Positions 18,341-63,024 of a stretch of DNA of 64,000 nt are shown here, in pieces (within the stretch, counting starts at the first letter, position 1; the number at the start of each line of letters is the position of its first letter). The notes beneath the pieces were generated by a model. It did not search any database. It was not told the origin of the DNA and saw only the letters and a list, made by a program, of their open reading frames with translations. The stretch covers positions 80,111,556 through 80,175,555 of the forward strand of contig CM055899.1 in the NCBI GenBank assembly GCA_029582155.1, written 5' to 3'. The position numbers were made by a program, and so were the translations under genes. The DNA is from Panopea generosa (Eukaryota; Mollusca; Bivalvia; Adapedonta; Hiatellidae).

Positions 18341-18402
18341 GTTACGGATATGCACGGAATATTCATGAGTGCCAGATAAATCCAAACGCCCAAGAACGCA
18401 TT
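18341..18402 (-). CDS. Possible short, diverged kringle N-half exon
   Basis: A 62-bp open segment lies between cttacaag (phase 1) and a gtaaac donor (phase 0), the same phase pair and the same donor hexamer type used by kringle exons here. It translates to ECVLGRLDLSGTHEYSVHIR. ECVLG copies the ECILG start of the 58.5-kb kringle N-half, and SGT may correspond to YRG, but the second Cys and the Trp are absent. No following C-half was seen. It may be a decayed exon or a chance match. Confidence 0.3.
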
Positions 18403-18564
18403 CTTGTAAGTTAAAAATAACCGTATAAGAATATGCAGCAAGTGTTATTCGTGGTCCAAAGTACTTGTTTAACAACATAATCGTTAATCAAACAATTATA
18501 GAATTTGACTATTTCTCTATATGAGAAACATCAAATATAAACAGTTAAGCGGGGCGCTAATTTA

Positions 18565-18730
18565 ACGCTATATAGTGTTGGCCGCTCACGCCAGAGGTAG
18601 CGGATCTTCCGCTCAATCCGATGTCTCTCATAAAACAGTACTCAGTACTGGTTCTACCTAGGAAACGAGCTCGAGAGCGGCTCAAGTAAGCTTTGAGCTT
18701 TCATCGCAATTGAGCTTAAATAAATAAGTA
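18565..18730 (+). mobile_element. SINE fragment
   Basis: gccgctcacgccagaggtag and a cagtactcagtactggttct / gagcggctcaagtaagcttt tail resemble tRNA-derived SINE parts. Boundaries uncertain. Confidence 0.45.
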
Positions 18731-18839
18731 TAAACTAAACAGTTGTACTATACAATTACCAAATACAACAATCCAACAGAAACATATCATAACAATTACT
18801 CATACGAAACAGTGTAGAACAATTGTAATATTACGTTTT

Positions 18840-19022
18840 CCAATGTGTTACTGTCAATTCCAGTCTGTTTAACGATTCAACTCTCTCGATTGGGTCCGTT
18901 CAATAGCAATTGTTTCTATCAAGCTGATTTGTCAGTTGCTTCAGGGAAATTGTGAATTTATTTTTTCCATTGGTGGTTAATAGACCTGATTCGGGAGATA
19001 TCAGGTTCTGGGATAAACTATG
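18840..19022 (+). mobile_element. MITE-like repeat, copy 2 of 3
   Basis: Shares gggtccgttcaatagcaatt, ttggtggttaatagacctga, ttcgggagatatcaggttct and a gggataaacta end with copies 1 and 3. It is internally shortened. Its right end lies about 60 bp from the kringle exon at 19.1 kb. Confidence 0.65.
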
Positions 19023-19082
19023 TCAATTCTGATAAACTAAATGTTAATTAGAAACCTTGAACAAACTAAATCAAAAGTTTAC

Positions 19083-19212
19083 CCGTCTGTTCCGAGCATT
19101 TTGGAATATCACAAAATTTTAGTTGATGGTTGACGACGCACCAGAAACCATTTCCGTTCAATGGATTACGGCAGAAATTATGATTGTAGCCAAACACCCA
19201 ATCCAAACCATC
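19083..19212 (-). CDS. Kringle domain, C-terminal half exon
   Basis: The 130-bp exon (tgtttcag acceptor, phase 0; G|gtaaac donor, phase 1) encodes VFGYNHNFCRNPLNGNGFWC, then KFCDIPKCSEQT. HNFCRNP, FWC and FCDIP.C define the second half of a kringle. This is the most downstream secure exon. The reading frame continues open upstream of the acceptor to about 19,446 (with an LCHFELPCSRELCE stretch); that part would be intron if the acceptor is used. Downstream exons carrying the C-terminus were not recognised. Confidence 0.88.
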
Positions 19213-19449
19213 CTGAAACAATAAGTTCCAATATAAAATATAAAATTCTGCTATAACGGATACACATTTATCATTTTCGTATATTATCACTACTGAAATG
19301 AAATCGTAATGAAATGCCTCGCATAGTTCCCGCGAACATGGCAACTCAAAATGACAGAGCAAGTCTTTATGAAGCCTCATGAACTCGGTAACAACATCTA
19401 GAGTCATGTAGATAAACGCAAAATTGAATACAAGAGTTACTAACATGTC

Positions 19450-19925
19450 ATGTTACAATATTTATTGTTAACAGTGAGTTACATTTAACTGGAAAAAAAG
19501 ATATAATTTGTCAGACAAAATAACAACATTAATTTTGTTTGTAAAATAAAATCAGACGTTTTTTTCATAACGCAATAAAGATACATGAAGATACACATAT
19601 ATGGTAAGTGTTTGCATACATATTGAGTTTTAATTTCAATTCCGTTTCAAATTTTAAAAAAAAAGTTAACTGCACACAAACTAAAGAAATTTGTCATAAA
19701 ATACCATGGTGACATCAACATTCTGGAATACTGCAGTTGGTAAGGATAGTCGTCAGACTGTATTTATATGGACAATAACTTTAAAACTCAAAAAAATCCA
19801 TATCTATTACAGTTGGTTATATAAGTAGATACTACTAATATTGTTTCATGATTTTTAAAGAATTGTTACCTTTAATATATATTATCTCAAAATACCATGA
19901 ATCGAAAATTTTGCTTAATGTGGCG
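19450..19925. other. Intron sequence, nothing recognised
   Basis: AT-rich with no repeat or exon landmark. Confidence 0.4.
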
Positions 19926-19930
19926 TTGAG

Positions 19931-20154
19931 CTAGTCTGTAGAACGAACCCATCTCTCCAGACTGGGTCCGTTCAATAGCAATTGTTACGAGCACGTTGAT
20001 TGGTCAGTTTCTTCAGAGAAAGTTTGAATGACGGCATAATTTAGAAAGCGTTCATTTACTGTGAATTATTGGACAGGCATATAATTCCCTTCTTTTTCCA
20101 TTGGTGGTTAAAAGACCTGATTCGGGAGATATCAGGTTCTGGGATAGACTAGGC
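19931..20154 (+). mobile_element. MITE-like repeat, copy 3 of 3 (best preserved)
   Basis: Begins ctagtctgtag and ends gggatagactag, giving short inverted CTAGTCT ends about 224 bp apart. The interior matches copies 1 and 2. No coding capacity. Confidence 0.7.
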
Positions 20155-20339
20155 GTTAAGCTAACAGTGCTATGAACAACTGGGCACAGATCGTCGTTTG
20201 TTCAAAACGCATCAATAGAGACAAATTTAGTAGTTTTATATAATTTATACAATTATCAAATTATAAAGTAAAGTATGTGTGCAAATAATATTAAGAACTT
20301 TCTCTTCAACGTGAAAAAAATACCGGCCTGACATTAAAA

Positions 20340-20480
20340 CAAATTAAGTATTCCATTGCTATTTGCAGATTTTGCTGTTATCGTCTCAGAAACAGCAATC
20401 GGACTTAAAACGCCATTAAATGATCTAGATGCATATTGTCCAAGATGGAAACTAAAAGTAATTGTAAATATTGGGAGGTT
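20340..20480 (+). pseudogene. LINE reverse-transcriptase fragment
   Basis: Encodes PLLFADFAVIVSETAIGLK and DAYCPRWKLKV, matching the catalytic-loop region of non-LTR reverse transcriptases (usual LLYADD..L.SET..GL, then YC..W.L.VN). The second catalytic Asp is Phe. Only this piece survives, inserted in an intron of the EGF-kringle gene. Confidence 0.7.
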
Positions 20481-20927
20481 CATTTCAAAATGCTACAAAC
20501 TACAATTGATAGATAAAGTTGGCACAGCTCGTTACTCAACTATTTTTCTCAGACACGGATATGCTATGAGGAATTAATTGATGCACCATCATATAATTGT
20601 CATGAAATGTTGATGTACTAACATGTCTGATTTTGTAGAACTATGTTTAATAAAAATAACTGATTACCCGGGTTTAGTTAATATTGCCCCAAAATTTCTA
20701 CACATTTACAGATGTAACCAAGTCCACTCATGCAAAACCATTGATATTATTCCACTGGTCAAGTCTAATGCACATATCGGCAAATTTAACATTTTTTTAC
20801 GATAAACAGCGTTATTTTGCGCCCGATATGATCCAGTCAAATTTTACTACTGATTTTACTTTGCACATCGTGAATATTGTGTTCTCTGGATGATTCTTCA
20901 AAAATAATTTAAGCATGGTATTTTAAT

Positions 20928-21022
20928 AGATCCAGACGCCCATGATGCACATGTTTCACCGTCAGCGGTAGTATGCCATGTTCCGCGGTACGAAAAAACA
21001 CCATCAAGCAAACAGTAAGTTT
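20928..21022 (-). CDS. Kringle domain, N-terminal half exon without an evident donor
   Basis: After a good acceptor (attctaacag, phase 1) the frame reads ETYCLLDGVFSYRGTWHTTA, then GETCASWASGS. SYRG and C.SW are kringle N-half hallmarks, and the GAA junction codon matches the preceding EGF exon at 23.3 kb. Past the Trp the frame runs to a TGA with no GT donor at the expected phase-0 position; only a weak GC dinucleotide (in CCATGC) is available. Either a non-canonical donor is used or the exon has lost its 3' splice border and is skipped. The end given is where similarity stops, not a splice site. Its C-half partner is at 19.1 kb. Confidence 0.65.
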
Positions 21023-21486
21023 CTGTTAGAATATAGAAAATTTTAGAAGAATTGAAATTGATCAGTTTGAATTAACATTGAACATTAGGTATTCCTAACT
21101 TTCAAACTTTTAACAAGAAGAATGAAGACAACTTCAAAAATATTATTGATTTAAATAACAATAATTTAGAATTTATTTACATGTCCATGTAATAATACAC
21201 ATTTGGAGGTTAATGAAGGCACATGAACCAATGGTGTGATTAAAATACACATCATTTTGGAATACGCTTTGGATCTGCATATACAAGATCTGAAAAGATA
21301 AAAAAAATCGGAAATTCCCTTGTTTGCGAATAAAATTATCTCCCTTTATGAAATAAAATACATATGGATTCACTGTATCTTCATGATCCAACGGTTTTCC
21401 AAATATGTCCTTTATTTAGCATGTGAGTACTCATGAATCCTTTACTGGATCCTAATCATATAAAGCTATCGATTCATGTATGTAAA

Positions 21487-21652
21487 TTGTTCGTCCAGTC
21501 CAGATGTGTTACATGTAAAACTATAGTATATAAGTTATGGTTGACACCAAATTCATTGGTTTCGCAAAGGCCTCGGTATTGTCTATGGTTTGCATTGTAG
21601 CTAGGCGTGCTCGCCGTAATCGGTTCTGTACATTTATGTCTGGTTATTCACA
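21487..21652 (-). repeat. Interspersed repeat, inverted partner of 60.81-60.96 kb
   Basis: The reverse complement reads gaataaccagacataaatgt, then attacggcgag, ctacaatgcaaaccatagac, aacttatatacta and acacatctggactggacg. The same order occurs on the plus strand at 60,807-60,963. Non-coding; family unknown. Confidence 0.75.
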
Positions 21653-21877
21653 CATAGATATCTCCATATCATACATGAATGAGCATCTGAAAAAGATCCC
21701 AAAAAATCGGAAATTCCGTTGTTTGTGAACTTAATTTATCACTTAATATATTTTTTATATATCGGTAACATTATAAGAAGTTTGTTATAACTGCATTTAT
21801 TGGTGTAAATAATGAGTATTGTATTCTCAACAGTTATACCAGATCCAAACAGAGAATAACACATATATAATAATCCA

Positions 21878-21968
21878 CCCGTTGCATGTTCATCTAGACA
21901 CCAATGTGCATTAACGATATTATCACAGCACTTAAAAATAAACATGTCATATATTTTCTCTTTTTCTT
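21878..21968 (-). other. Low-confidence exon-like segment with kringle-like Cys-Trp-Cys
   Basis: Between atttttaag and TCTG|gtataa the frame reads CCDNIVNAHWCLDEHATGG, then YMCYSLFGS. The HWC and the Cys spacing vaguely recall a kringle C-half with matching 0-1 phases, but the CRNP and final C..P.C are missing. It could be a very old decayed exon copy or chance. Confidence 0.15.
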
Positions 21969-22189
21969 TGTCTTGTTTTGTACATTTTATCATTTTCGAA
22001 AGTTTGTTTATCTCTTCATTTCTTTCGGTTGTTAATTTTTGTCATGAATCATGCTGTCATCTTCAATAATGTTATTTCTACAGTGAAGGAGAGAGCAATA
22101 CACGTAACTAAATGAATGTGACAAGAAGCTGTGGCGTAACCCGTTTGTGTGTCAATTTTAAATAAATAAAACTGGTTAAACAAGTGCAT

Positions 22190-22490
22190 CTTGACTTCAA
22201 TTTGTGTTACAGTTGTCTTCAGTCCTCCCAGAAGAACAACCATATTTGCACTATTTGCACATTCCGGCAACAAGATTGTTACAACTTGACTTTTCTGGAA
22301 AAAAATATTTCTTTCGTCACACTTCTTCTCCTATCTAACCAGAAGATCACGTATTTCGGATGCATTCAACAACTACATTTCTTCTCGTGTAAAGAAGCGT
22401 ATTTTCGTCACTCTTGTCTTTACTCAAGCAAGGAGAATAACCGTCTGTACACTTTAAGGTTACATTACAACACGTCTTTTAGAGTTCCTA
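22190..22490 (-). repeat. Highly decayed copies of the EGF exon 3' half
   Basis: About three degenerate units keep the order seen at 23.25 kb on the plus strand: cgtcac, a T/C-rich run, a ccag/ccaag..ag-aga stretch, then cattccgg or acactttaaggttacatt and acaacacgtc. They look like older members of the tandem duplication found at 22.83-23.25 kb, now separated from it by a SINE. Confidence 0.45.
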
Positions 22491-22574
22491 TTGTTGTATT
22501 GTTTTAAGCATCGTTTTAACAATTTTTCAGTTATATCGCGTTCGTATCTACACATTGCAGTATTCTAAGGTATG

Positions 22575-22752
22575 TTACTCCGACCAGCCAAATTATACTG
22601 ACACCGAGCCGACCAGACCTAGAAATGACCTCTTAATGCCGATCACCATATGAGGAAGCTTCTAGTAAATTTGTCCAAGTATTTTATATGTCTGTGATCA
22701 AATCCCTTTCACGTACGAAGCGGATGCTCTACCCCTAGACCACCGATATGTC
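22575..22752 (-). mobile_element. tRNA-derived SINE
   Basis: The minus-strand head ggtggtctaggggtagagca, catccgcttcgtacgtgaaa and a box-B-like gggatttgatcac are followed by a body ending ggtgtcagtataatttggct. The layout is typical of molluscan tRNA-derived SINEs. It separates the older and younger EGF-exon duplicates. Confidence 0.7.
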
Positions 22753-22829
22753 TGACTGGATAGGGTATTATACCATGATTCTGCGGCATGATACACCAGT
22801 GTGACCGCGTTTACAATATTTTCTCAAGT

Positions 22830-23249
22830 AGACACCGTTACGATATGACGGAAAAAGTGTTGAAAGAGATGATTAACTCTGATTATATTACAACACGTCA
22901 TGTACAATTAGACTTGTCACTGTATAAAAGAAGCCAGCCAGGAGACATCCTTCTGTAAACATTCCGTTACAGTACTACACGTCGGTAAAAACAAAATTAG
23001 TCTGTGTATAAAATAAGATTACCTTTACTTTATTTTTGTCCAGTTCAGCCAAAATAACATCCTTCTGGACACATCCCGGTTACATTTTTACACGTATGTT
23101 ACAACAAGACTTGTCTGTGTATAAAAGACGTTTACCTCCATCACATTTTTCTCCAGCCCGATCAGGAAAACTGTATTTTTGGACACATTCCGTTTACATT
23201 ATAAAAGGTCTATTACAACTAGACTTGTTTGTGTATAAAAGAAACTTAC
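22830..23249 (-). repeat. Tandem partial duplicates of EGF exon plus donor and intron start
   Basis: Units of about 113 bp (anchors gtgtata at 23,004, 23,117 and 23,231; a shortened unit near 22,920) repeat the 3' half of the EGF exon, its donor region (rc of cttacc) and the first 35-40 bases of the intron. Identity to the live exon falls with distance from it. The copies lack the first half of the EGF domain and an acceptor, so none is a complete exon. Confidence 0.8.
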
Positions 23250-23387
23250 CTTCGTCACATTTTTCTCCAGCCCAGCCAGGAGAACATCCGTCTGGACACT
23301 TTCCGGTTACATTATTACACGTCTGTGTACACCGGTAGCATTCATACTGGCATAATTTTCCATAGTAGTATTTCGGGCAAAGAGATT
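23250..23387 (-). CDS. EGF-like exon (eight-cysteine)
   Basis: The 138-bp exon (ttgaag acceptor, donor G|gtaagt, phase 1-1) encodes ESLCPKYYYGKLCQYEC, then CNNVTGKCPDGC and GWAGEKCDEG. It has eight cysteines in the MEGF-type spacing and the same NVTG sequon as its paralogues. The acceptor has a poor pyrimidine tract. Immediately downstream, inside the intron, are several decayed tandem copies of the exon's 3' half together with its donor (22.83-23.25 kb). They may act as decoy splice sites, or are simply dead. It joins in phase to the kringle N-half at 21.0 kb. Confidence 0.85.
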
Positions 23388-23389
23388 CT

Positions 23390-24940
23390 TCAACATATAT
23401 AATACAATCTAAACATTTGAACTCGATAATACAACTACAAAAACATAAAAGTTCTCGAAAAAGCAACAAAACTAAAGGGCGATGCAGCGGCAAATAGAAA
23501 AGTTGATTAGATAAAAGTTTAATTTACTCACTACTTAATACTAAACTGAACATCACTTCTTCAATTGAACGTTCCACTCGCAAAATACGTTTCATTTATT
23601 ATGTTATATTTATAACGGCATCACGATTGTGATTTACATTTTCTTTAAAAAAATGAAGTTATATTATAATCCTCATATTTAAGTATCATAAATCACGGCA
23701 AAATTATCAATGCATATAAAGACAATTATTGCAGCAGTTACTAAAAGGTGTGAATCGAGTCAACTCGAATAAATCTCTATTTTACACTTAATTAAAAGCA
23801 TATACCAAACTGTTATAAGTCATAATAAATACAACTGCCTTACCGAAATAGCGATGAGGCAGAAGAAAAAGAATATTTTATCAACTGTTACAGTTTCTCG
23901 TTACAAAACATAACTATACAATAAATATTTACATGTCAGTTATCAGTATATAAATATCACACAATTATTTATGATTATAGTATTAAGTATGATATTAAAT
24001 CTTAGCATTCCCTTATTAAAGTATCACTCATGATTCGCCTAATATACTGAACGGAATATCTAATCTGTCACCAGACATTCTATGTACCAGACAAATTAAG
24101 TATTTTCCAAAATATTTTAAAGCAAATTCTTTAAAAATTGGACTTGAATAGAAAACAACATTTGGTTATGTAAAAGCAATACAAACTTGCCTGCTAATGT
24201 CGTTTACAAAGTTTAATAACGTTACTCAACAGTTTAACGAAGATATTGGAAATACAAAAGTGGCTGGTTAGCTGTCCTGTTCAGTAAAGTAAAAGCTTCC
24301 TCAATAAATTTACCTAAATTAGCAAGATAAAGTTAAGTTATTAATAGTGATAGAAATTTAAACAAACTTAGATGACGGATATAAAACTGACGAATAGATA
24401 TGTTTCTTATGTCATTATAGGCAGAACAAATAAAAATAAAGTGAAATTCGTCTTCTATATCGTTAGAAATACATATTTAACAAATACCGTTCATGTGTCT
24501 CTACTCGTAATTTTGCATACCTGCTAATTCCAATCCTTAAGCAATGTGATGATAACCGTAGCCTGGCAAAAGCAATTCGAAGACGTCTTGTACTTAATAT
24601 ATTAAGATAGTTTGAATAGCATAAATGAAATTTAACTTTTTTATATAAAATCAATACCCTGTTGCTATTAAGGTCAGCCAACCAATTTTAAGTGAATTTG
24701 TCAACCAAACGATGCCTGAACAAAGACAGAAAGCTCCCGGCTTGTTGATATTTAACTTTTCATTCGATATGAACATAAAACATACGTGTATAAATAATGT
24801 TTTACTTTTGCCACCCTGTTCTTTAATCTCTTTTAACTACCAGTAAGAGCGCGTTCGTAAACAGCCGTCACAATGATATTGTCTATGTTAATAAACTTCA
24901 GCCAATATATAACAATCCTAGCAAATATACTAATACATAA
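23390..24940. other. Intron sequence, nothing recognised
   Basis: AT-rich with scattered ORFs under 75 codons and no familiar motif. Confidence 0.4.
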
Positions 24941-24949
24941 TGGGTATCA

Positions 24950-26335
24950 CCCTAATTCTCCGTAAACACCTGCATTACATATTGTTGTTTTTATCCCTAA
25001 CATGTGTTTGCAAAAGCGTATTTCTAAGAGGATTCTTTCTATTTCTTTAGATTTAGTAACACCCTACATTTCGCATCTATAGTTTAGAAATGACGATACA
25101 AATACACGTCTAACAATTGAAGCGATGACTTTGGGCTCAACTCAAATTTTTTTCATATTGAATGTCAATACATTCATTGCTTTAAGATATTTGCCACAAA
25201 TTGCTTGCTGGCTTAGACAAAACGATCAGGTATAATTTAAAATAATACCTAAATAGTGAAAAATTATCTACTACTTTAAGTGAATAACCATTATAAAAAC
25301 CACCTCTTTTACTTAATTCATTTTTCCAAAGACGACAATTTTCGTTTGATCTGTATTCAATTCTAATCCCTATTCTTCACAATAAGTATAGACATAATTT
25401 AATCTTTATTGTAATTTATCTGGACTCGAACCTATACCATCGGAAAAAAGTAAATGGATCAGCGTAACGTCATTAAGAATTCACGTATTGTCTGAACTGC
25501 TTTTCAAAGTTTCAAGTCTTCACTGTATAGTGCAAACATTATTGGCGAGATTATCTCGCCTTGTTTTAGGCAAACCGAGTCTATTTTTTTTTTCAATAGT
25601 TTGAAGCATAATGCCAGCGTCAACTGTTGATTTCCCTTTTCTGTGTATAATGTTCTCTGCTTTTGTACCAATTACTGTTACGTCTATTTAGTACACTTGT
25701 AAATAATTTCCCCATTCTGCTTACAAGAGAAATACCCCTATAAAAGTTTTCCTTATCGTCCTTTTTATGTAATGTATAATAACCCCACTAACCAAAACCC
25801 TAGAAAAAAAATCCTGAATAAAATATTATGTTAAAAATGTCTGTTATATGTGCAGATAATATGTCACATGACGAGATTAGATATTCATTTAAAATGTCGT
25901 CAGACGTGGCCTTATTTATTTTTAATAAATAATGGTGATTCGACTTCTGATATAGATATTTGCCTATCCAGCTCATTATCATTAACCTCATGAGTATCAT
26001 TAACATCGTTCTCATCATTATGATAGTTAGTTTGTATATCCTTGTATAAATTATCGAAGTACGTACGAAAATCGTCTAACGAAATATCGGGTGTCTTCAG
26101 CTTATTGGAAGAAAAATGTTTCCAAAAATCATGCGGTTTTAAATGTCGCATATTTTCCAATTCTTTCATTTGTTTCTTTTTTAACAAATAACTTAAATCC
26201 TGCCTTAGTATCCGCGAGTAAAATTCGCTCTGATTTATTTCTATTGAAATTAAACAATGCGTCCCGATACGCTATTTTCGCTTGTTGGCATGAAGTGTCA
26301 AACCATTTATAAGTATCAGTACTATACGATAAAAA
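24950..26335 (-). pseudogene. Decayed non-LTR retrotransposon (endonuclease C-end through RT)
   Basis: Read on the minus strand in order: WFDTSCQQAKIAYRDALFNF (endonuclease-RT linker, about 26.3 kb), LKPHDFWKHFSS (26.1 kb), KATSDDILNEYLISS (25.9 kb), YRGISLVSRMGKLFTSVLN (25.7 kb), GEIISPILFALYSEDL (25.5 kb) and NTDQTKIVVFGK (25.35 kb). These are consecutive conserved blocks of a LINE polymerase, close to those of CR1/Jockey-like groups, though the clade is not settled. Several stops and frameshifts separate the blocks, and the catalytic FADD block is unreadable (LFSDG). The 5' end is missing. Confidence 0.82.
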
Positions 26336-26439
26336 GCCGCATTTTACAGAATACAGAATACATATATTGTATTTGACTTTAGCATACGTGATCGAGTATA
26401 CAAGTCAGCTCTGTATACTTTTGAGACGTTCTCATCAAA

Positions 26440-26875
26440 CGCATGACTATCGTTCTAAACTTAGATATGGAATGGGTACCGGATCTTGGGAATTATCTTG
26501 GAGATTTGACGAATAAAGTACCTGACAATCGAATACTGACATTCGTTACAGGGGGTCCATAAAATACTATTACAAATTGGAAAAACCTGATGAAGATGGA
26601 AAATTAATCCATTGTAAAGTAAGGGGTATCACTCTAAACCACAAAAACTTAAAATAAGTCAATTATGACACCCTGAAGAACATGGTTACAAACAATCCTA
26701 ACGAAGTTGTGACGGTGACTGACTGCAATAAGTTATGTAGAGACAGGGGTCAAGCAAAACTTTTGACTGTACAACAAACCAAAGACTATTGCGTATTGTG
26801 TTTGACAAGAGAGTGCGAAAGGGTCATGTGTCTTAACCGTATGGTTACTGAAATATGAACTGTCTGCTTTAAATG
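26440..26875 (+). pseudogene. Polinton/Maverick-like DNA polymerase B fossil (C-terminal part)
   Basis: Blocks reading LGNYLGDLTNKVPDN, LTFVTGGP, HCKVRGITLNH and VNYDTLKNMV, in that order, match the C-terminal part of protein-primed family-B polymerases of Polintons (usual G.YLGDLTDE, FVSGGPKNY, CKVRGFTLN). It is a broken fragment of a few hundred bases. No capsid, integrase, protease or terminal repeat of such an element was found around it. It appears old. Confidence 0.65.
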
Positions 26876-26879
26876 CGTA

Positions 26880-28620
26880 ATTCTTAAATGTGAATAATGT
26901 AAATAAAACATGACATGCATAAATGTAGTACCTTGTTGAATAAAAATAAAAGACTGAAACGTATATGCTGTACAACATTGACTCCCTTAAATGGACATGA
27001 TAAAACACTATGGAGATTGCTGAAAGTATGGAGATATTATATAACTAACTTAATGCTACGGATGAGGTGATGTATGACGGAGCATTAGGAACCGCTTTCA
27101 GTTTTCACGAACCGCTATAAGCATGGGAAAAAACAGGAGTGACCCCGTCTAATAAGAGGACCTGACCTGTTAATGTCCGCTCGTACTATTAATTATTTCT
27201 GGCGTTATCTCTTGTCTGAGAATCACAAATAATGATCTCATAAAAGATTAACTGAAAATTCCCTCCTTCAAAAATCCAAAATATCGGCTTTATATAGAAC
27301 ATATAGTAAAAAAAATACCTATAGTGAGGGCCTTCACTGCTCACACGTCATAACGTCATACATACGTACGTAATAAATATGCACGTCATAACTATACACG
27401 TCATAAATATATATCACATTCATTGGAGAAAAAACGTTTGTCCAATTTTAGCCATATCATAGTATCATGATTATTTTTAATTACTGATACGCTTTTATTT
27501 CACAAATGTATCATTGTTATAAAACAAACGAAATAAAACATGATGATGTTTATATGAATTCTGGTTAAAATAATATGTATAAGATTCACAAATGTTATAC
27601 ATATCAACACAGTCTCCATAACTAATAACATCTCGATGTTTATGCCAATAAGAAAAAAATCGACTTATGATGATTTTATGATAAAAAGAATATCTTATTT
27701 TTTGTTAAAAAAGAATCATAGAGAAAATTAATGTGATTATTTATCAACAATCATATGGTTACCGACTTATAATGGAGAGAGTGAAAAAGAAAAAGAAAAA
27801 TGTAATTGCATCACTCATGTCAATATTGTTAATATTTCATAAAAGCTTTTTCAGTTTTAAATGATATTTTCTTTTTTTATAGTTTAAATGATAAAAAGTC
27901 CCCATTTTATTTCATGTATTTCTGGTTTGTCATGTGAAAGAACTATATTTCGTTCTTTTTCGAGTCTCTTCCATATACTTTATGAACAAATGTATTTTTG
28001 GAACATATTTTGTGAGTTGCTTTCAAATATACACTATTTTGCACAAATCATTAATTGATTCTATAATTATTTGTTTAAATTCCAAACGAAATTGTGTCTT
28101 TGCATTAATAAAAGTTTAAATATATCCCTTATTCTGTCCAAAATGTCTGCACATGAAAGCATTTCAAGAACAAGTGACCAGTTGTTTCTATATAAACTTT
28201 ACAAAATCATCACAGTTTGAATTTAATATTTTAAATTTCATCAAAGAAATTATATGTACGAATACATGTTTTTAATAAAAATACAACGGTAATAAAATAT
28301 ATTGAATAAATACAAGTAAATATACAGAAATACGCGATAAATCGAATAGTTTACTTAAGATACGCATTTATTTCACAGTCCAAAATGTTGTATGTTTAAT
28401 TTAGGTTTATCTACAGAAATACTAATGTCATAGCTAGCAAGATCTAAATTATATGTTATTTGTGACAATATATAAAATCGTTAAGCCGACATGTTTCGCA
28501 ATATAGTTTTATTGTTTGATATGTATCATATATGAAATACTAGTAAACATGAAACTAGCTTGATAACGCTGATATAAACAAGGTTATATCTTTGGCATAA
28601 AACCTAGCTAAATATAATTT
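26880..28620. other. Intron sequence with a short CACGTCATAA repeat
   Basis: About four to five copies of cacgtcata(a) words cluster at 27,335-27,415. Otherwise it is AT-rich with no recognised gene. Confidence 0.4.
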
Positions 28621-28630
28621 GTATACTTAC

Positions 28631-28781
28631 CGTTCTTACGTGTCCGAACATTTCCTGGGCATTCATCAATACTGCATAAATCGATATCAATAACACCTCG
28701 CCCCTTGTCAACATAGCATTGTGGCGTATCAATATTATTCCAACTACGGCAGAAGTTATGATCGATTACTTGTCCATATAG
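28631..28781 (-). CDS. Kringle domain, C-terminal half exon (divergent)
   Basis: The 151-bp exon (ttatag acceptor, phase 0; G|gtaagt donor, phase 1) encodes VIDHNFCRSWNNIDTPQCYV, then DLCSIDECPGNVRTRKN. The HNFCR, CYV and C..(D/P).C landmarks of a kringle C-half remain, but the usual NP after CR and the Trp before CYV are replaced, and the exon carries about nine extra residues after the last cysteine. Open frame and good splice sites suggest it is still used. Its expected N-half partner was not found upstream, where 20 kb of mobile DNA intervenes. Its phase-1 end fits the EGF exon at 23.3 kb. Confidence 0.8.
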
Positions 28782-28789
28782 CTATAAAT

Positions 28790-29615
28790 ATAATGCATGA
28801 ACAAATAAACTAAAAATTGATATGAAAATTGATAATTCATAAGTGACATTTGCATCAATTCAATGTCGCTTCCGTTAAACTTACGCCACTCATTAACTCA
28901 TTTATTATTTGATATAACTGATCTCTTGCTACTATCGTTACCCCCACTTGTCACTTGGCGATGTATGTCCAAGTAAATACAATGTAATGCAATGTAGTTA
29001 TTCCTAAGAGACATTTCGCGTGTCTAAGGATACTGTCAGTAAAGCAACCAATACAGCCATACGTAACATGTTGACTCTGAATTCAAAATCAATATCATAT
29101 TAGAAGATGCAAAGTTTTCATTTGCCAATGTTGGCTCTATCGTTTTATTGACATTAATCATACATATATATACACATTACACATTACACATTCTATGTCT
29201 AGTATTTGTTTTATTCCCTATAGCCCAAACAACTTTACTTGGGTATTCTAGTCTGATCAAGTTTACATGGGTATTAATACAACGGGACGGGTGGCACAAC
29301 TCGGCTTAAATCTAAGGTTACGTTATCACACTATATTACCGGCCATCGGGAAAGGACAATCGAGCTATTGCAAATACAATACATGTTTTATTTAATTTCG
29401 AGTTTTCTTTATTTTATCTCATACATTTATAGCGATTTAAGAAACGAGATCATATTAGAAATATCTGTAATTGATTTATATGTACATAACTTGTCAACAA
29501 AGTTGTGTTCAGAAGTGTTTTCAAACCGTAAGGTACCAGGGGCTTAGACTGAAGCTATTTTAAAGTTTAATCTTATATGTAATTGCTTTACATTGACTTT
29601 AAAATAAGTTCTGAC
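28790..29615. other. Intron sequence, nothing firm
   Basis: Searched on the minus strand for the kringle N-half that should precede the 28.7-kb exon; none with both YRG and C..W was found. Confidence 0.4.
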
Positions 29616-29619
29616 AACT

Positions 29620-29893
29620 TGAACAAATGACGTTCGAAATCTTCCTTAGTAAAATCATTGAAATATATCTGTATAAGCATATTGTAGTTGGATACCATTT
29701 CTAAGTTTAAACTGATGTATTTTACTTCGATGGTGAAACAAGTTATTACAACTTATACAAGTCACACCAGTACTAAGCATATGCGTAAAAAGTGTCTTGC
29801 TTAAGCACGCCACACATATCCGTGGAGGAGGAGCGAAACCATGGTCCTCCGATCCTTGGTCCGAATCTTTATCACTAGACCACGAGCTGTATT
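29620..29893 (-). mobile_element. tRNA-derived SINE, family 2 copy 2
   Basis: The minus-strand head gctcgtggtctagtgataaa and ccatggtttcgctcctcctc are followed by gtgtggcgtgcttaagcaag, cttagtactggtgtgac and a gaagatttcgaacgtcattt end. It is homologous to 12.35-12.63 kb and carries an extra internal stretch of about 100 bp. Confidence 0.7.
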
Positions 29894-30659
29894 CAAATCT
29901 AGCCAAACCTATTCTACAAATCGCACTGTCTGTATATGCTTCTAATGTTTGGACAAATTCACCGTACATGTTAAACATGCATCTATTTTTTTAGTTATTT
30001 TCTGTGTCTAACGCAGATTCGAAAAACTATGATATATTGATGACTCTTACTGACAAAGACCTAACATGCCGAATGTCATTAATTTGTTAAATTCAGAAAA
30101 CAACATTTTTTATTTAAATAAGAAATATAGCAATATATTTATGATACACATGTATCTTCCATTACAATAGTTTTGGTAAATAATATCATGTTGTATACTC
30201 CGATGAGTGAATATTCTAGACGACTCTGGGTTGTTACGGTCAATTCGAAAAGGCCGTTTCTCAAGAAAATCATTGTGTATCATATAAGTATTGAAATAGG
30301 TTTTTAAATGAAAATAAAGTATCCAACTATAATTCATAATTGAAATAAGATTGATATGGATTTTCAAATCCACCTTCAACGTGACACATGTCAAATGATA
30401 TTTTAATCGGTTAAAGCGAAATGTAATGTCATCTCTAACACTAGCATGGACGCACTGTTAGACGACGCCCACCTCTTCATACAGGCTGCTTTTATGATAA
30501 ACCAAAGTCTACAGCATGTAATAAATATGGCTGATTCAAATCATAATCTTGTTTCGCACAATCAAAAATTTTGTTCCAACATCCTAACATACTGCCCGTT
30601 GAAGTAAACATTTTGTTACATTGAAACACACAACCTATTTAACTGCCAATGCCATGAAG

Positions 30660-31010
30660 CACATTTTAACTTGTCAATGCGGTCACCTCTTATACGCGGT
30701 CACCTGTGTTAAATGGCCACTTCAACACCCCCACCCCGTGTTAATTGCCTCTATAAAGTACATGTTTTAAACGGTCACCTCTTGAACCTGGCCAGCGGCC
30801 AGTCTATTTCATCCCAAACAGTCCCAGTAAGCGGTAAACGGTCACATGTGACTGCTGATCCTTTATCACTTAGCGGTCATATCTTTTATCTGGCCCTATT
30901 TCAATCATATTGTATTATCCCGGGTATAAAGCATTTCACTACCACCATATCATACCGTGTGTTCTATATGTTTAGATCGGAAGCGAAGCCACGATAGACA
31001 AGTGTAGCCG
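30660..31010 (+). repeat. GGTCACC-rich repeat block
   Basis: Repeats of (g)cggtcacctcttatac, ggtcacctgtgttaaatggc, cggtcacctcttgaacctgg, cggtcacatgtgactgctga and agcggtcatatcttttatct occur within 250 bp, forming a degenerate tandem pattern with a 25-60-bp step. The composition is more GC-rich than the surroundings. Possibly part of an interspersed element; family not identified. Confidence 0.55.
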
Positions 31011-31474
31011 TTAATTGTTGTTGAAAGATTCCCCCTGTAGGATAGTCCCTCAATTAAGCACTCTGTAATGAGAAAACAAAGATGTAACGTGCTTGAATAT
31101 AGATATTGGAACAGTTTGAAACATATACATGTATAATTAATTTATTTATGTTTTATTGGATCAGATTTTGACAAACGTTAAACAATTTTATAACAAACTC
31201 GTTTTTAATATATTTCGACTTTTAATACAAATGATAATTTTAACAGAAAAGTAATACTGTTGATGTTATTGCTACTACATTAATTTTTTTCTTAGTATGA
31301 GTGTTGATTATTTGCTACTACTGTTGTTATAAGTGTTGTTAATAGCATTGATGTCATAATTTATCTTCAGGCTACTTATTATTGTTGTTATCATTAATAT
31401 TCTGTTTATGATTATATATATAACTTTATTATCATTAAAATGTTATTATTATTATTTTTATTTTTATTAGTGGT

Positions 31475-49803: not shown

Positions 49804-49867
49804 ATTTCTTTCAATAGACACGTACTAGCTGACACTGAATTAGGCCACAACAACCTTACTACTTTGT

Positions 49868-50479: not shown

Positions 50480-50611
50480 CTTTGTTGCACCGATCACCAG
50501 TCAATCCAGGTACGCATCCATCCATGCATAACCCCGAAACATTTAAACACGGTTCTGGACAGAAATAGCACAGTTCTGAACAATTCTCGCCATAGCGGTA
50601 AGGCAAGCATT
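50480..50611 (-). CDS. EGF-like exon (eight-cysteine)
   Basis: The 132-bp exon is bounded by tttcctag and AAAG|gtggta, phase 1-1. It encodes ECLPYRYGENCSELC, then PEPCLNVSGLCMDGC and GLTGDRCNKG. Eight cysteines and the NVSG sequon align with the EGF exons at 60.2 and 23.3 kb. The aromatic Trp of the GW.G motif is Leu here. The donor gtggta is weaker than the other donors in this gene. Upstream is the kringle C-half at 54.7 kb. The next recognised exon downstream is the kringle C-half at 28.7 kb, which starts in phase 0, so a phase 1-0 exon (a kringle N-half) should lie between them but was not found. Confidence 0.85.
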
Positions 50612-51067: not shown

Positions 51068-53603
51068 AAAGCGGAATATACCTTTTAAATTATTTTATAT
51101 TATAAGTCAGTGGTATAATTAGTATATTATGAAAAAGTAATTTCCATTGTGAATATGTATTTTTTGCAGGAGTAAATACAACATTTATTTATATATGACA
51201 TCGTAAACATGGCCATGTTCAATCTTTTTGACGTCCCAATTTATAGCAGCAAAATCGCGTATTTTTCGACCTCCGTTGAGTTATAACCTAATGTACAGAA
51301 TAGAAACATATATCACCAAGTACACATCCGACGGATGTATTGATTTACAAATGCAAAAATTACGACGAACGCCAAATTCTGAAAATACTAGCGAAACTAT
51401 TTTTTCTCTCGATTTTTTCTAAAATCGGTTTAATAAAAGAATACATAAAAAGCAAACCGAGAGATTTCGGCATAACTTTTATATGATTTTATGCAATATA
51501 TTGTATAATTATGCAAGAGTTTAAGAGAAATTGACAAACTACAATTTTCATAATTTTCAATTATTTAACCCTACCCTTCATCACAAAACGCTTTAAAGCA
51601 AAACGACAACGTTGGTATAGCAAATTAAATGTTGGGTTTGTGATTATTAATAAAATTTGATATGCAGTGCATAACCTTATAAATGTGTTGAAAATGACGT
51701 TAAACCTCATTCTACAAAAACTAGTATTTTGTGCACACAAGTTATATCTACTATTGCACTTCTGTTTAGTGGCATATTATTTTGAGCCAGTCGACAAACG
51801 TTCCACATAATCGTCCATTACTAGATCGTGATCAACATCATCGTAATAAAGAAGCAAAATATCATCATCATCATCATTGTTTTCATCATCGTCATGGTTA
51901 TCGTCATTTGGTAAGACATTCTTAGCATCCCTTGTTTTGTTTTTTTATTTTACATAAATGCCGCTCTAGATTCAATACTACGTCTTTCCTTCAACCGACA
52001 ACGTTTTAATTTACTCATATTTCTATTCTCTTTTGAACATCACCAGTATTATGTAAAAATCAGATTGCAATAATGTGTAAATAATGTCGGCTATTTGCAC
52101 GGCTGTGACGTTTTTGTCTGCTTGAAGCTTTTTGTTCGCAACACTTTTATCTACATAAATATAGAAATACGTCGACTTTTGTCTCGATGCGATCAGAAAT
52201 ATTCATTGTCCTAAATTTTGATCAGACAAAAGGCGACATGTTGACAAAATTTGATCAACCAACCGGAAACTTATGGGATTTTTTACTTATTAAGTCAAAT
52301 GTGAAATTAAATACCTCAGTATAAAACACGTTTCTAGTTTGCTGTGATTCTCTTAAAGGGCACGATACGTTCTACGAAGAGTGGGAGCGCAGCTGAAAGA
52401 GTGTTGACCGCTTACTCCAAAGGTCGCGGCTTTGATCGTCTTAATGGCCATACAAATTACCTGTCCTCGTCAGTTCATTCATCATCAAAATAGCCAATGA
52501 ACCGTACAACATAACTAATTATATGTCTTTGAAACTTATATGACTGGATTAATTAAATTGCTGTTTCGAAAAAAAATTAAAACTTAAAGTGCATTTCCAT
52601 CATAATTCTTTCAAATATTAAATTTAACTTTGACACAACTTAATATTTTGGAAAGGAATAAAGGTAATTTAACCAAAACCGCTTGCCCACTTGTGTGTTT
52701 TTGCAGAAAAAAAATACAAACCATAGTAATATCATTTAATGGAACTGGTTGGAAGGGTGCTCCACCGTACGTTCAACGGCGATATACATGGATCGTGGCT
52801 TTTTACTGCTAATCATAGCGGGTATTGTTTCAAGCTCGTTTTATAAATGTGTATCATTTTGCTCCGAACTTCAAAAAAGCCAGACATGTTGTTCTAATAA
52901 CTGACAACCATAATGTCCACATTTCACAAGCAGTCGTGGTGGTAGTCAGAAATGAGAATATTATTTTGGAATCATGTTCCGTGTAAGTGAAATAAAAATG
53001 ACGGTTTTGTACGTGTACCAAACAGATTCGCTATTATAATGGCTATAAACGATTAAGTTTCCACTTAACAGCAGTAGTATATATAAATAGTTGACGTTGA
53101 CGTTTGCTTTTAAATGTTTTTTATAACGTAGGATAGGATTAAATAATAATAATATTTGTACCATATGTAGTATAAAATCATATTAAATTATGCAAAAATC
53201 GCTCTGTTTGTTTTTTGGTAATTTTGATTTGAAGTGTTTTTTTTTCTCGAAAAATCGAGAAAAAATAGTTCCCGTTTTTCGCTATTATTTTCAGAATTTG
53301 GCGTTCGTCGTAATTTTGCATTTGTAATTCTATACATCCGTCAGATGTGTACGTGGTGATATACGTTTCGATTCTGTACATTTGTTATAACTCAACTGTG
53401 GTCGAAAAATACGCGATTTCGCTGCTATAAATTGGGACGTCAAAAAGGCTGAACATGGCCATGTTTACGACGTCACATATAAATATATGTTATATTTGCC
53501 GCTGAAAAGTATACATATTCATATTGGAAATTACTTTTAGTTTCATAATATACTAATTATACCACTTATTTCAAAAATAATTTAAAAGGTATAATCCTCC
53601 TTA
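51068..53603. mobile_element. Long inverted-repeat element (430-bp arms, 1.65-kb centre)
   Basis: The arm at 51,068-51,505 matches the reverse complement of 53,165-53,603 along its full length. Shared words include ataccttttaaattatttt, gtggtataattagtatatta, aacatggccatgttca, tttttgacgtcccaatttat, atcgcgtatttttcgacc and gacgaacgccaaattctga. It could be a DNA transposon with very long TIRs or two copies of one repeat inserted head to head. The centre shows no transposase and holds a SINE head at 52.37 kb. Confidence 0.75.
52370..52485 (+). mobile_element. tRNA-like SINE head
   Basis: gtgggagcgcagctgaaaga, gtgttgaccgcttactccaa and aggtcgcggctttgatcgtc follow tRNA box A and box B order. The tail is short and unclear. 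Confidence 0.5.
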
Positions 53604-54534: not shown

Positions 54535-54656
54535 GATGTTGTATAATATATATTAGATTGATTTATATTTTGCTGAGCGCTGATTGGAAGGAAATAATTA
54601 CAGATATACATGTATCAATACATTTCTGCAAATGTCATGAAATCAAAATGCCATAC

Positions 54657-54780
54657 CTTTAATTTTGGTAGAACAGTTTGGCAAATCACAATAATCAATT
54701 AAATCCCAGGCAACATAACACCATGGCCGCAATTCAATCCCTCTTGGATTACGACAATAGTTATGATCGAGGGATAAATC
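54657..54780 (-). CDS. Kringle domain, C-terminal half exon
   Basis: The 124-bp exon (cttttag acceptor, phase 0; G|gtatgg donor, phase 1) encodes DHNYCRNPRGIELRPWCYV, then DYCDLPNC. HNYCRNP, PWCYV and YCD.P.C are textbook landmarks of the second half of a kringle. It pairs with the N-half at 58.5 kb and passes to the EGF exon at 50.5 kb by a phase-1 junction that again makes a GAA codon. A decayed copy of its 5' end and the adjoining intron lies just upstream at about 54.9 kb. Confidence 0.9.
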
Positions 54781-55075: not shown

Positions 55076-55079
55076 GTCT

Positions 55080-58000: not shown

Positions 58001-58425
58001 CACATTTTAGACGGACAAATTGACGGACAATCTGGTGACTATATGCTCATCCTTGTCATGAGAAGTCCGTGTAATGCTTTTTATAATGGATATATATATA
58101 TATATATATATATTTATGTATATATATATATAATTTATTTCAAACAAATTGAACTCGTGTATTACCTAAGAAGTAAATACTTTACGGGTATGGGCTGTTG
58201 TTCCTGCCATCTTTCGGTCTCTATTGCGAGTATATTTAAATAAACTCATAATCGGGTAAGCGTATACCTAAACTGTTTTTCTGTGGCAAAGTCTAAATAA
58301 AGTTTTGAAAGTAAGTAATTATAGGTATTTACCCAACTAGAAGCATGTTTAGGTTATTTAAAGAAACACTTGGATAATATTTCCTGTTTACTTTATATTG
58401 AGATAATTGTGATAATAATGTGTAC
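55080..58425. other. Intron between kringle halves, nothing recognised
   Basis: Phase-0 intron linking the two halves of the best kringle. It contains a (TA)n run at 56,373-56,402 and one at 58,089-58,132. Short ORFs with hydrophobic runs (for example 55.7 kb) show no known motif. Confidence 0.5.
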
Positions 58426-58429
58426 ATAC

Positions 58430-58548
58430 CGATCCTCGAAACAAATTCAAGCTATAATAAAAAGTTTCCCACCAGTATAGGCAGGTCTTCCCTGTGGATA
58501 CTTCTGACATATTTCCACGGTATGATTCTCCATTTCCAAGTATACATT
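58430..58548 (-). CDS. Kringle domain, N-terminal half exon
   Basis: The 119-bp exon (ttacag acceptor, phase 1; gtatgt donor, phase 0) encodes ECILGNGESYRGNMSE followed by STGKTCLYWWETFYY. This is the kringle opening: first Cys, GNG.SYRG, then SG..C..W. Kringles are about 80-residue triple-disulfide modules used for protein or ligand binding outside the cell. In many animal genes they are split by a phase-0 intron roughly in the middle, as seen here. It joins in frame to the C-half exon at 54.7 kb and together they make a full kringle with all six expected cysteines. This is the best preserved kringle in the window. Confidence 0.88.
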
Positions 58549-58559
58549 CTGTAAGTAGC

Positions 58560-60150: not shown

Positions 60151-60156
60151 ACCTAC

Positions 60157-60288
60157 CTTCGTGACATCGTTCACCCATCCAACCAGGAAAACAGCCATCC
60201 ATACACCGCCCCGTAACATTGTAACACGGCTCGTCACAGTTTCGACATTCCTTGTTACACTCATCGCCATAAACATATTTCGGACACA
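60157..60288 (-). CDS. EGF-like exon (eight-cysteine, MEGF/laminin-type)
   Basis: The 132-bp exon is bounded by aacacag and G|gtaggt, phase 1-1, and encodes one 44-residue domain beginning CPKYVYGDECNKEC and ending GWMGERCHEG. Eight cysteines, the YG after the first cysteine, the central NVTG, and the GC.PGW.G..C ending match the EGF-like repeats of MEGF10/SREC-type proteins. NVT is also an N-glycosylation sequon, and it recurs at the same place in all three EGF exons here. The phase-1 end supplies the G of a GAA codon completed by the kringle N-half exon at 58.5 kb. Domain recognition is strong; the parent gene's identity is not known. Confidence 0.88.
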
Positions 60289-60806
60289 CTGTGTTTTGTT
60301 TTAATATAAAACATTATACGAAGATAAGGTTTTGCTTAATGCGATTAGTAAAACATGTAATGCATTAAAATAGGCAGTGTTTAGATTAAACCACCGTACC
60401 AAATAAAATGGAATTATTTCTCATCAACGTATACATGTAATATAGCATAGTGGTGTTTTGGTCCGTGTTTGTCTGTAGTACGTAAGCAGAAATAAGCACA
60501 ATGTATCTTCTTTTTAGAGCAAATTATTTATTTAACTTTAACTTTTGCACAGATATTTAAATTATGTTTTCATCAGAAGCCAACATGTACTGGTATATCC
60601 TTTCGGAGATTTCAATCAATTTGCTCGTCGATGTAAGATTATAATCTATCATTAAAAAATAAAAATGAATTGATTCTTGAAGTAGTGAATACTTTGCAGG
60701 CACTTTCTATCATGGACCATTTCACTAAGTTGTTAATAGACTTTTTATCAAATTTCTTTTATATGTTTGGGTGTATATATATATATGAAAATATATGAAT
60801 ATGAAT

Positions 60807-60963
60807 AACCGAAATATAAATGTACAGACCAGACTACGGCGAGCTACAATGCCAACCATAGACACAATACCAAGGCCTCTGCCAAACCAATAAATTTGTT
60901 GTCGACCATGACTTATATACTATGGATTTACATGCAACACATCTGGACTGGACGGACAAATTA
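60807..60963 (+). repeat. Interspersed repeat, partner of 21.49-21.65 kb
   Basis: gaataaccgaaatataaatg, actacggcgagctacaatgc, gacttatatactatgg and acacatctggactggacgg match the inverted copy 39 kb away. Flanked by (TA)n runs on both sides (60,772-60,783; 60,962-60,981). Confidence 0.75.
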
Positions 60964-61338
60964 TATATATATATATATATACGTACATGTTAACACTATT
61001 ATTAATGTGCATTAGTATTGTTTATCTATTAGGACAAAAAATATGTTTATTAATAAAAAATGAAGTAATAGATATCATAAAACAAAAATATCTTACTTAA
61101 AATAACTAGTACAAAATAAACTGACTAGTCAACAATATGGTTATATTTTGCGCTGTCAACTAAACTTATAATATTTATCATATATTAAACAAATTAGTTC
61201 AAATTTTAATTAACTAAACATCAATGCATTTGATTATGTTTCTTTTAATGATATCATTAGTTAAGGAATGTATATGCGTTTCTTCATGCAATTCATACAA
61301 ACAGTCTTTAATAAAAACTAGTAGATATTTGTGTTTTG

Positions 61339-61513
61339 TTATTCTAATTTAAATGTTTCAAAACAATATTTTGGTTTAAGTTTAACAAACATTAAATTAA
61401 AAAAACTTGGTATGAAGTTAAGACAATGTTGATATTTTTTATAATTATTACATTTTGATAAATGTGTTGACATCGACATTCTCACGACAAGCAACAGTAA
61501 TACAGTGACACTC
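61339..61513 (-). CDS. Candidate signal-peptide-like exon or short secreted ORF
   Basis: The sequence tttttgcag is followed directly by ATG and an open frame of 58 codons starting MSVTVLLLLVVRMSM, then a short lysine- and cysteine-containing tail ending at a TAA. The hydrophobic start looks like a signal peptide or membrane anchor. No convincing donor with phase 1 was found inside the frame, so splicing to the EGF exon at 60.2 kb cannot be shown. A short intronic ORF that is open by chance is equally likely in this AT-rich DNA. No family was recognised. Confidence 0.2.
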
Positions 61514-61670
61514 ATCTGCAAAAACAATAAAAGAATAAACAAAGGGGTGTGTGGGAACAGATATTCGGCATTCTCAATATTAATAATAAAAACACGAAAC
61601 AAACATGCGCAGTTTGTGCTTAGCATTGAGATGTAGTGACTATTCATTATATGGATGTTAGTTTTAACTA

Positions 61671-61730
61671 ACAAGTATGTTATTGTTATGTTGTTGTTAT
61701 GTTGTTGTTATGTTGTTGTTATGTTGTTCA
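61671..61730. repeat. GTTGTTAT-type minisatellite
   Basis: Four to five copies of a 13-15-bp unit (ttatgttgttg). Confidence 0.9.
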
Positions 61731-62899
61731 AATGTTTGTAGAAGCGGATCTTATATGACTGCTTATTTATAACTGAGTCTATCAAACGAGTTGAAAATCA
61801 TTATGCAAGACTTTGTCGAGCATTATATCATTTTTACAATGGAGTTTAGTAAATTCAATAATAAATGCGCACGACTATGGTTTTCGTTTTATCACATCAC
61901 TCAGGAAATAATAACATTTACTGTTCTTGAAACAGATCACCTCAGTTGGGAACGAGAAAAAATCGGGCATCATATGACGTAACGTCTCAAAATAACGTCA
62001 TTTAACCATGACAAATCGATGTCATTTATATATTCGGGCAAGTCGTAAAAAAATACTTCGGTTATTTATGTTCGAGAGCTGAGATATACGAAAAACATAA
62101 AGCAATCGTTTGTTATAATGTGTTTGTTACAATGTGTTTGGCCTCCTGTATGGAAACTAATAACAATTTCCAGGTTTTATAAAATGACACTTAAATATCT
62201 TTTTCTTTTCGGACATAGAGTAAGTCAGCAACTGTCGACCATAATAGTATTTAAGGCATTTCAGTTATTAAACTGTTTTAATTCTTAGGCATCGACACAC
62301 GTCAGACAAGTATTTACATTAAATAGTTTCAAGATAAACTGAACAAATAAGTTGACCAAAGGATAAATTTGAATATTGTTCAGAAACCGAAATTTGCATT
62401 TTTTTATGATGAAAAGCAAATTTTATGTATAATAAATATGCAACTGCAACTAACTTCATGAACTGGAATAGAACAGAATATATTTTTTTCTGTAGTAAAG
62501 AATAAACTAACAATTTATGTTTTTATGTGCAAAAGAAATGTCCTTTAAGACCTTCGAAGTTGTTAAAAAAATATGTGTTATACCTATTATTACAAATAAT
62601 CAAGTCATTGTTACACAAATCTATCTCCAGAATGTAAATCTCAATTTAATACAAAACTTTAGCCATCATTTTTAAAGTGCAGGTTTGATTAGGTATTAAA
62701 AAATGATGCCATAAATTATCATCTTTAGCCACAAGATTTGCTTTTTTCTGCATTGTCCATGCATTTCATGGTAAAAAAAATACCAAAAAAATAAACAATT
62801 CTCACAAGAAAAGACACTGTCAAGAGGTTTTAAAGGATGAGTTTGAAGCTGCCACATATTCTGTCGTGAAAGTAATGAAATACGTAAGCAAAAACTTAC

Positions 62900-63024
62900 C
62901 TTTTTTTATATTGATGTTTTCGAAATAAATGTCGCACCGCCAGGCCGGCTTGTCAATCGACACAGTGCTACAGAAGCTAATATTTCGTTTGATACCAAAT
63001 TTGGCAGTATGAAATGTTGAAACC
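62900..63024 (-). CDS. Candidate exon, F5/8-fucolectin-like or degenerate kringle C-half
   Basis: A 125-bp open stretch is bounded by a tttttag acceptor and a strong donor (G|gtaagt, phase 1). The translation includes ISFCSTVSIDKPAWRCDIYF. The C...PAW.xD.xF pattern resembles the core of fucolectin / F5-8-type-C-like domains that sit N-terminal to EGF repeats in some molluscan proteins. The two cysteines are also spaced as in the kringle C-halves of this locus (11 residues between), but the later kringle cysteines are absent and the acceptor is phase 2 rather than 0, which argues against a kringle. The phase-1 donor would splice cleanly into the EGF exon at 60.2 kb, so it is a plausible upstream exon of the same gene. 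The domain identity is inference. Confidence 0.4.

Follow-up and report, generated by a model that had tools for sequence, protein, structure and literature searches.

The window analysed here, a 64-kb stretch of the Panopea generosa genome (contig CM055899.1, positions 80,111,556 to 80,175,555 of the forward strand), carries nine exons on its minus strand, running from position 60288 down to 19083, in which an EGF exon, a kringle N-half and a kringle C-half follow one another in the same order three times over. We refer to each such set of three as a cassette. The exons were located by a motif scan followed by local alignment of the domain halves against all six frames of the window. The first-pass annotation, made from the sequence alone, had proposed three EGF exons, two or three kringle N-halves and three kringle C-halves on one strand in cassette order; alignment recovered all of the EGF exons and C-halves, and three N-halves, also on the minus strand and in order, the last of them with a donor problem. 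The nine exons, in order of transcription, are as follows.

60157..60288, minus strand: EGF exon 1 (E1); eight-Cys pattern, phase 1-1; acceptor weak (-3.4), donor strong (10.3)
58430..58548, minus strand: kringle 1 N-half (KN1); phase 1-0; read-through Pfam Kringle match 2.3e-4, profile positions 1-34
54657..54780, minus strand: kringle 1 C-half (KC1); phase 0-1; read-through Pfam Kringle match 4.8e-7, profile positions 43-79
50480..50611, minus strand: EGF exon 2 (E2); phase 1-1; placed by alignment and splice sites
30956..31062, minus strand: kringle 2 N-half (KN2); phase 1-0; missed by Pfam alone, found by alignment
28631..28781, minus strand: kringle 2 C-half (KC2); phase 0-1; best stretch of a read-through Pfam Kringle match of 3.4e-4
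23250..23387, minus strand: EGF exon 3 (E3); phase 1-1; acceptor picked for phase, weak and not top-scoring
20940..21022, minus strand: kringle 3 N-half (KN3); phase 1-?; lacking a canonical phase-0 donor and ended here at a hypothetical GC donor of poor consensus
19083..19212, minus strand: kringle 3 C-half (KC3); phase 0-1; its acceptor outscored by a competing phase-1 one at 19247

With copy 1 as the query, the other two copies scored 169 and 147 for the EGF, 74 and 56 for the N-half, and 77 and 66 for the C-half. Because these scores exceed the control maxima for the same three parts (51, 48 and 47 in 100 dinucleotide shuffles; 49, 49 and 45 in the reversed window), the cassette exons are not a product of chance. 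By subtraction, the introns between them measure 1.6, 3.6, 4.0, 19.4, 2.2, 5.2, 2.2 and 1.7 kb in order of transcription. The joined frame of the cassette exons is open over 413 codons, a join that takes in a 5' exon later dropped from the model as well as the hypothetical GC donor of KN3. The order, the shared strand, the open joined frame and the splice sites all agree with the earlier proposal that EGF-kringle cassettes with compatible phases would lie within a single transcription unit.

Mobile elements lie in one of the introns and may lie in a second. The 19.4-kb intron between E2 and KN2 contains a Gypsy-type reverse transcriptase/RNase H on the minus strand (33982-35231) and, on the plus strand, a reverse transcriptase fragment with the look of a long interspersed nuclear element (LINE; 40768-41052; Pfam 26.2 vs 29.6 bits), and these pieces explain part of its length. 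A DNA transposon may occupy the intron between kringle 1 and EGF 2, where inverted repeats of 155 and 69 nt, ~90% complementary, lie ~2 kb apart (51133-51358 and 53314-53538).

Identity of the kringle and EGF modules

Searched against the Pfam Kringle profile (PF00051), the joined product matches at 4.7e-35 in three stretches. Taken singly, kringle 1 (K1) scores 68.2 bits (8.2e-19), kringle 2 (K2) 45.6 bits (8.8e-12) and kringle 3 (K3) 34.8 bits (2.1e-8), all above the gathering cut-off of 34.3 bits, with the K3 score depending on the hypothetical GC donor. Each of the three joined kringles has all six conserved kringle cysteines, and they share these, together with the YRG...TC..W and N(Y/F)CR motifs, with the kringles of plasminogen, HGF and apo(a). 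Among PDB structures the nearest relatives are plasminogen, HGF and prothrombin, with apo(a), ROR and KREMEN lower in lists that hold the best 60 of 89, 80 and 71 matches.

Since joining exons involves choices, we also scanned read-through frames with Pfam, without splicing. Three of the nine exons (KN1, KC1 and KC2) were placed in this way. The matches of KN1 and KC1 lie in different frames and cover complementary parts of the profile; KC2 leads a match with a second, unplaced stretch that may or may not be KN3. KC3 fell in a gap between the read-through scans and was not scanned whole.

The three EGFs have eight invariant cysteines (C1, C10, C14, C17, C21, C28, C32 and C41). MEGF and SREC are among the proteins with eight-Cys EGFs, and the cysteine pattern of the three exons is also that of laminin, DSL and stabilin. 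Pfam matches of the EGF exons to EGF_laminin, DSL and stabilin EGF stay below the cut-offs, and the solved structures most like the EGF profile are those of Delta-like proteins (E 0.048-0.24), not MEGF or a scavenger receptor. Despite missing the Pfam cut-offs, EGF copies 2 and 3 score far above the shuffles. Unlike the known eight-Cys EGF proteins, the arrangement found here has a kringle separating each EGF from the next. Profile searching of the spliced product, which the first-pass annotation had put forward as a check, bore out the kringles and left the EGFs below the cut-offs; the designation of the latter as eight-Cys repeats is supported by the cysteine pattern.

Splice phases, copy history and the third cassette

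To score the donors and acceptors near each exon core, we drew up a generic consensus table. At 8 of the 9 donors and 7 of the 9 acceptors (15 of 18 in all), the best-scoring site had the expected phase, and the failures are confined to cassette 3. Cassettes 1 and 2 are phase-perfect: the EGF is 1-1 and the kringle pair 1-(0)-1, with phase-1 introns on both sides as in class 1-1 modules, a layout that is incomplete in cassette 3. The phases had been described as perfectly matched throughout, which is accurate for cassettes 1 and 2 but fails in cassette 3, where KN3 lacks a phase-0 GT donor and the fitting acceptors of E3 and KC3 are not the highest-scoring ones. Both kringle and laminin-type EGF are counted among the class 1-1 modules with which exon shuffling works (PMC3927616, PMC8001218). 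Each unit may accordingly be pictured as having been assembled by recombination within phase-1 introns and then multiplied.

In kringles 1 and 2 the inner intron is in phase 0 and lies 8 and 10 residues, respectively, before the third cysteine. The kringle of human LPA is likewise split over two exons with phase-1 outer introns: kringle IV-2 is given as two exons of 160 and 182 bp, the set starting at c.392, and arithmetic from these values places the outer introns in phase 1 and the inner intron in phase 2 (PMC4378929). The phase-0 inner intron of cassettes 1 and 2 thus differs from the LPA type. The difference could mean that the inner kringle intron was gained separately, or that it shifted.

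With regard to the history of the copies, differences by codon position (first/second/third) number 15/12/24, 16/10/23 and 21/13/26 in the EGF pairs and 11/12/17, 10/8/14 and 9/5/17 in the N-half pairs; these counts cover EGFs and N-halves, not C-halves. We used only the codon-position counts because synonymous divergence (dS) was undefined in 3 of 6 copy pairs and 1.46-3.09 in the remainder; by these values the duplications are old. The third-position excess, E3 and KN3 included, fits selection at the protein level after duplication, as judged from these counts, and a recent loss is possible. The closest copies differ from part to part, being E1 and E3 for the EGF, KN2 and KN3, by a hair, for the N-half, and KC1 and KC3 for the C-half. 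A kringle tree of 14 rows groups the three kringles of the window weakly (74/50 support); none of its 11 inner branches is well supported and long branches are flagged, and we draw no conclusion from it on cassette history. Duplication of a three-exon unit, as originally suggested, is likely from order and phase, but the closest copies disagree and the tree adds little at that support.

Cassettes 1 and 2 are sound, and cassette 3 is doubtful. The hypothetical GC donor was used in order to show kringle 3 at all. The segment from the Trp to the His-Asn preceding Cys3 is then 8-9 residues shorter in kringle 3 of the joined model than in the other two kringles. Next to cassette 3 there are also broken, incomplete copies of its EGF exon.

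23000..23249, minus strand: broken tandem copies of the 3' half of EGF exon 3 and its donor, with a unit of ~114 bp and in-frame stops
~22369..22477, minus strand: another copy of the E3 3' half, incomplete, decayed and more diverged

Tandem Repeats Finder reports 2.8 copies of the 114-bp unit at 23000-23322, a unit made up of the 3' half of E3, the donor and some intron. The third cassette may be decaying or may be spliced differently. It is a real possibility, somewhat short of an even one, that live exons are confined to cassettes 1 and 2, or even to part of these, with cassette 3 being either a pseudo-cassette left out during splicing or the mark of a decaying gene end. The missing donor of KN3, the weak acceptor of E3, the shortening of kringle 3 with its score barely above the Pfam cut-off, and the broken EGF copies adjoining the cassette all point that way, as does the phase-1 acceptor of KC3, which scores slightly better than the fitting phase-0 one and would join E3 directly, skipping KN3. 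However, E3, KN3 and KC3 have neither stops nor frameshifts within their domain halves and keep all their cysteines, and the differences of E3 and KN3 from the other copies are biased to third positions.

Gene limits, the protease question and the weighing of the gene model

The outer limits first drawn for the gene, 18341 and 63024, did not stand, as the end exons that they imply are unsupported.

62900..63024, minus strand: candidate exon at the outer limit, not accepted; weak match to ribosomal protein L27a
18341..18402, minus strand: candidate 1-0 exon, not accepted; no kringle signature

The product of 62900-63024 has 19 PDB matches up to E 10, all of them L27a/uL15 (one labelled L27), the best at E 0.037, and tblastn with L27a gave 0.009 over 35 columns with no further extension. 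This exon, with its weak L27a-like matches, is not part of our gene model. We also discarded an F5/8-type (discoidin-like) interpretation of it, no Pfam family matching at E up to 5, a weak test with 41 residues. A short L27a-like stretch (KRN-SFC-TV--DK) at 62895-62999 on the minus strand is possibly a retrocopy fragment. At the other limit, 18341-18402 was considered as a fourth kringle N-half; its phases fit (AG before AATGC, GT after AAC), but it has neither YRG nor C..W, and its 21 codons, again a weak test, gave no Pfam match at E up to 5.

Two further candidates were set aside. A candidate transmembrane exon at 5433-5552 has a hydrophobic stretch but runs into a stop, and no splice-site test links it to the gene. 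A candidate first exon at 62938-63049, from a signal-peptide scan of 60290-64000, ends in phase 1, could join E1 in frame and has a mildly hydrophobic stretch (2.09 over ten residues); it was not used. Neither the 5' nor the 3' end of the gene was found within the 64-kb window.

The minus-strand Pfam scans, run with E limits of 0.1 to 1, covered 2000-14430, 17600-19080, 19200-29100 and 30900-64000, leaving out 1-1999, 14431-17599, 19081-19199 and 29101-30899. They returned no protease family, for a gene that runs out of view at both ends, and neither strand of the window has a GDSG(G/S) or (S/T)AAHC motif. A kinase-type motif scan picked up only two DFGL strings, one on each strand, and an Rfam scan of the window at gathering thresholds gave 0 matches. 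Besides kringles and retroelement domains, all Pfam matches fell below the curated cut-offs: Caudo_bapla_RBP (0.082), B129_C2H2-zf (0.25) and Ndc80_HEC (0.0076) on one open reading frame (ORF) and, on the gag ORF, PNMA, BCDHK_Adom3 (0.011) and Na_H_antiport_3 (0.07). We take the PNMA match to be gag-related and the others to be chance.

The EGF-kringle combination is otherwise that of a set of serine proteases, and the gene could carry such a protease or another enzyme at its 3' end; it would then be related, in an invertebrate, to the EGF-kringle proteases, its EGF-kringle portion having been multiplied. That the 3' end was not found in the window leaves space for this, but we consider it unlikely: no trypsin family matched in the minus-strand scans of 2000-14430 and 17600-19080, the two catalytic-type motifs named above are missing from both strands, and the EGFs here are of the eight-Cys type, unlike those of EGF-kringle proteases, which are of the six-Cys type.

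Several points weigh against reading the nine exons as parts of one gene. Within the window, the exons could not be linked to a signal peptide, a transmembrane segment, a start or a final stop. The retroelements in the 19.4-kb intron leave room for other readings. The unspliced Pfam scans missed KN2, E1, E3 and E2 (the last being 11 bases short there), and EGF_laminin gives the three EGFs 18.3, 15.1 and 17.8 bits, under its cut-off of 21 bits. Among the splice sites, the only acceptor of E1 (-3.4) and that of E3 are weak, and the sole in-frame GT of KN3 is in phase 2 and scores -0.1. The G+C content of the nine accepted exons, 37-48% vs 32.4% for the 64-kb window, does not discriminate, because the two rejected candidate exons are also rich (38.4 and 43.5%).

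We nevertheless consider it quite improbable that the exons are spread over two or more adjacent genes, or form a degenerate cluster of exon fragments, rather than one transcript. Introns of 1.6 to 19.4 kb, one of them with retroelements, unseen gene ends and the presence of fossil exon pieces would suit such an origin, but it does not readily account for the strict threefold order of EGF, N-half and C-half on one strand, with matching phases and a frame that stays open across the joins. Judged from the sequence, the locus is most likely the middle of a multi-exon minus-strand gene coding for an extracellular protein, secreted or anchored in the membrane, in which EGF-kringle units are repeated in tandem; its split modules and the retroelements are those expected of an animal gene.

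Beyond the span of the exons, the window holds a retroelement with long terminal repeats (LTRs) at 6963-10257 on the minus strand. Its two 514-bp LTRs (6963-7476 and 9744-10257) are 99.4% identical, and it carries gag, a zinc knuckle and a protease-like DSGA stretch; Pfam found no reverse transcriptase in 7000-10050, and the element looks young and devoid of pol. Two satellite arrays are also present, one of ~36 copies of a 53-bp unit at 1-1898 and one of ~30 copies of a 108-bp unit at 14432-17618, in which long plus-strand open frames are kept.

Relatives, ligand binding and the meaning of the architecture

The serine proteases uPA and tPA combine EGF and kringle modules. In FXII and HGFAC an EGF stands directly before a kringle, as it does here (PMC9643190). 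In contrast to these EGF-kringle proteases, the present gene has a repeated cassette, an eight-Cys EGF and no protease found in the window; in contrast to plasminogen, HGF and apo(a), its kringles alternate with EGFs instead of forming a tandem run, and they lack the D-x-D pair. Kringle annotations do occur in molluscs. The limpet adhesive protein P-vulgata_14 is listed with an M12A peptidase, ApeC, CUB, one kringle, two sushi, C-type lectin-like and ShKT domains (PMC7333891), and a mussel 'MAC/perforin- and kringle-dom-cont prot' is annotated (PMC4581086); the accessible parts of these two papers do not mention an EGF-kringle alternation. Among the matches listed in a literature search of titles and abstract openings, none announces a description of alternating EGF-kringle repeats, which is no proof of absence in print. 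As far as these tools reach, the architecture looks uncommon, and it is built by the ordinary exon-shuffling rules of a well-known kind of modular protein.

Two sequence collections not meant for animals were also searched. In the genome-contig collection there were 2 loci of 8 pattern matches, a clear bacterial kringle (L001) and a weak one (L002; 18.1 vs 34.3 bits), and the viral-contig collection had no kringle-pattern loci. The clear case (645-2462, plus strand) comes from Pseudoalteromonas amylolytica, a 605-aa protein that carries two kringles near its C-terminus (Pfam 1.6e-31), an instance of kringles in a bacterium.

The kringles are unlikely to bind lysine or fibrin, to judge from their alignment, because the acidic pair of positions 54 and 56 is missing in all three. 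At the D-x-D columns of plasminogen kringles 1, 4 and 5, K1 has RGI, K2 NNI and K3 LNG. For lysine to be bound in the plasminogen manner, positions 54 and 56 must be acidic (PMC11555715), and the pair belongs to the lysine-binding kringles (plasminogen K1, K4 and K5 and apo(a) KIV10). Other known kringles also align without it, for example HGF K1 with RGE. An N-x-S/T sequon occurs at the same place in the three EGFs (NVT, NVS and NVT) and in kringles 1 and 2 (NMS and NLS). The protein chain could form a disulphide-bonded, probably N-glycosylated extracellular binding rod, whose kringles would bind partners by means other than a plasminogen-type lysine site.

Taking these features together, we tentatively raise the possibility, which we hold to be less than likely, of a protease-free extracellular family in which the three-exon EGF-kringle cassette was the unit of multiplication, the phase-0 inner intron was gained independently of the plasminogen/apo(a) line, and lysine binding was lost or never had. 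Kringles mostly come up in the context of vertebrate clotting, fibrinolysis and growth-factor proteins. A kringle that alternates with an eight-Cys EGF and has no lysine site would show another career of the module, in which it serves simply for binding. The inner intron in phase 0 would be a simple marker by which to tell whether kringles became split once or more than once.

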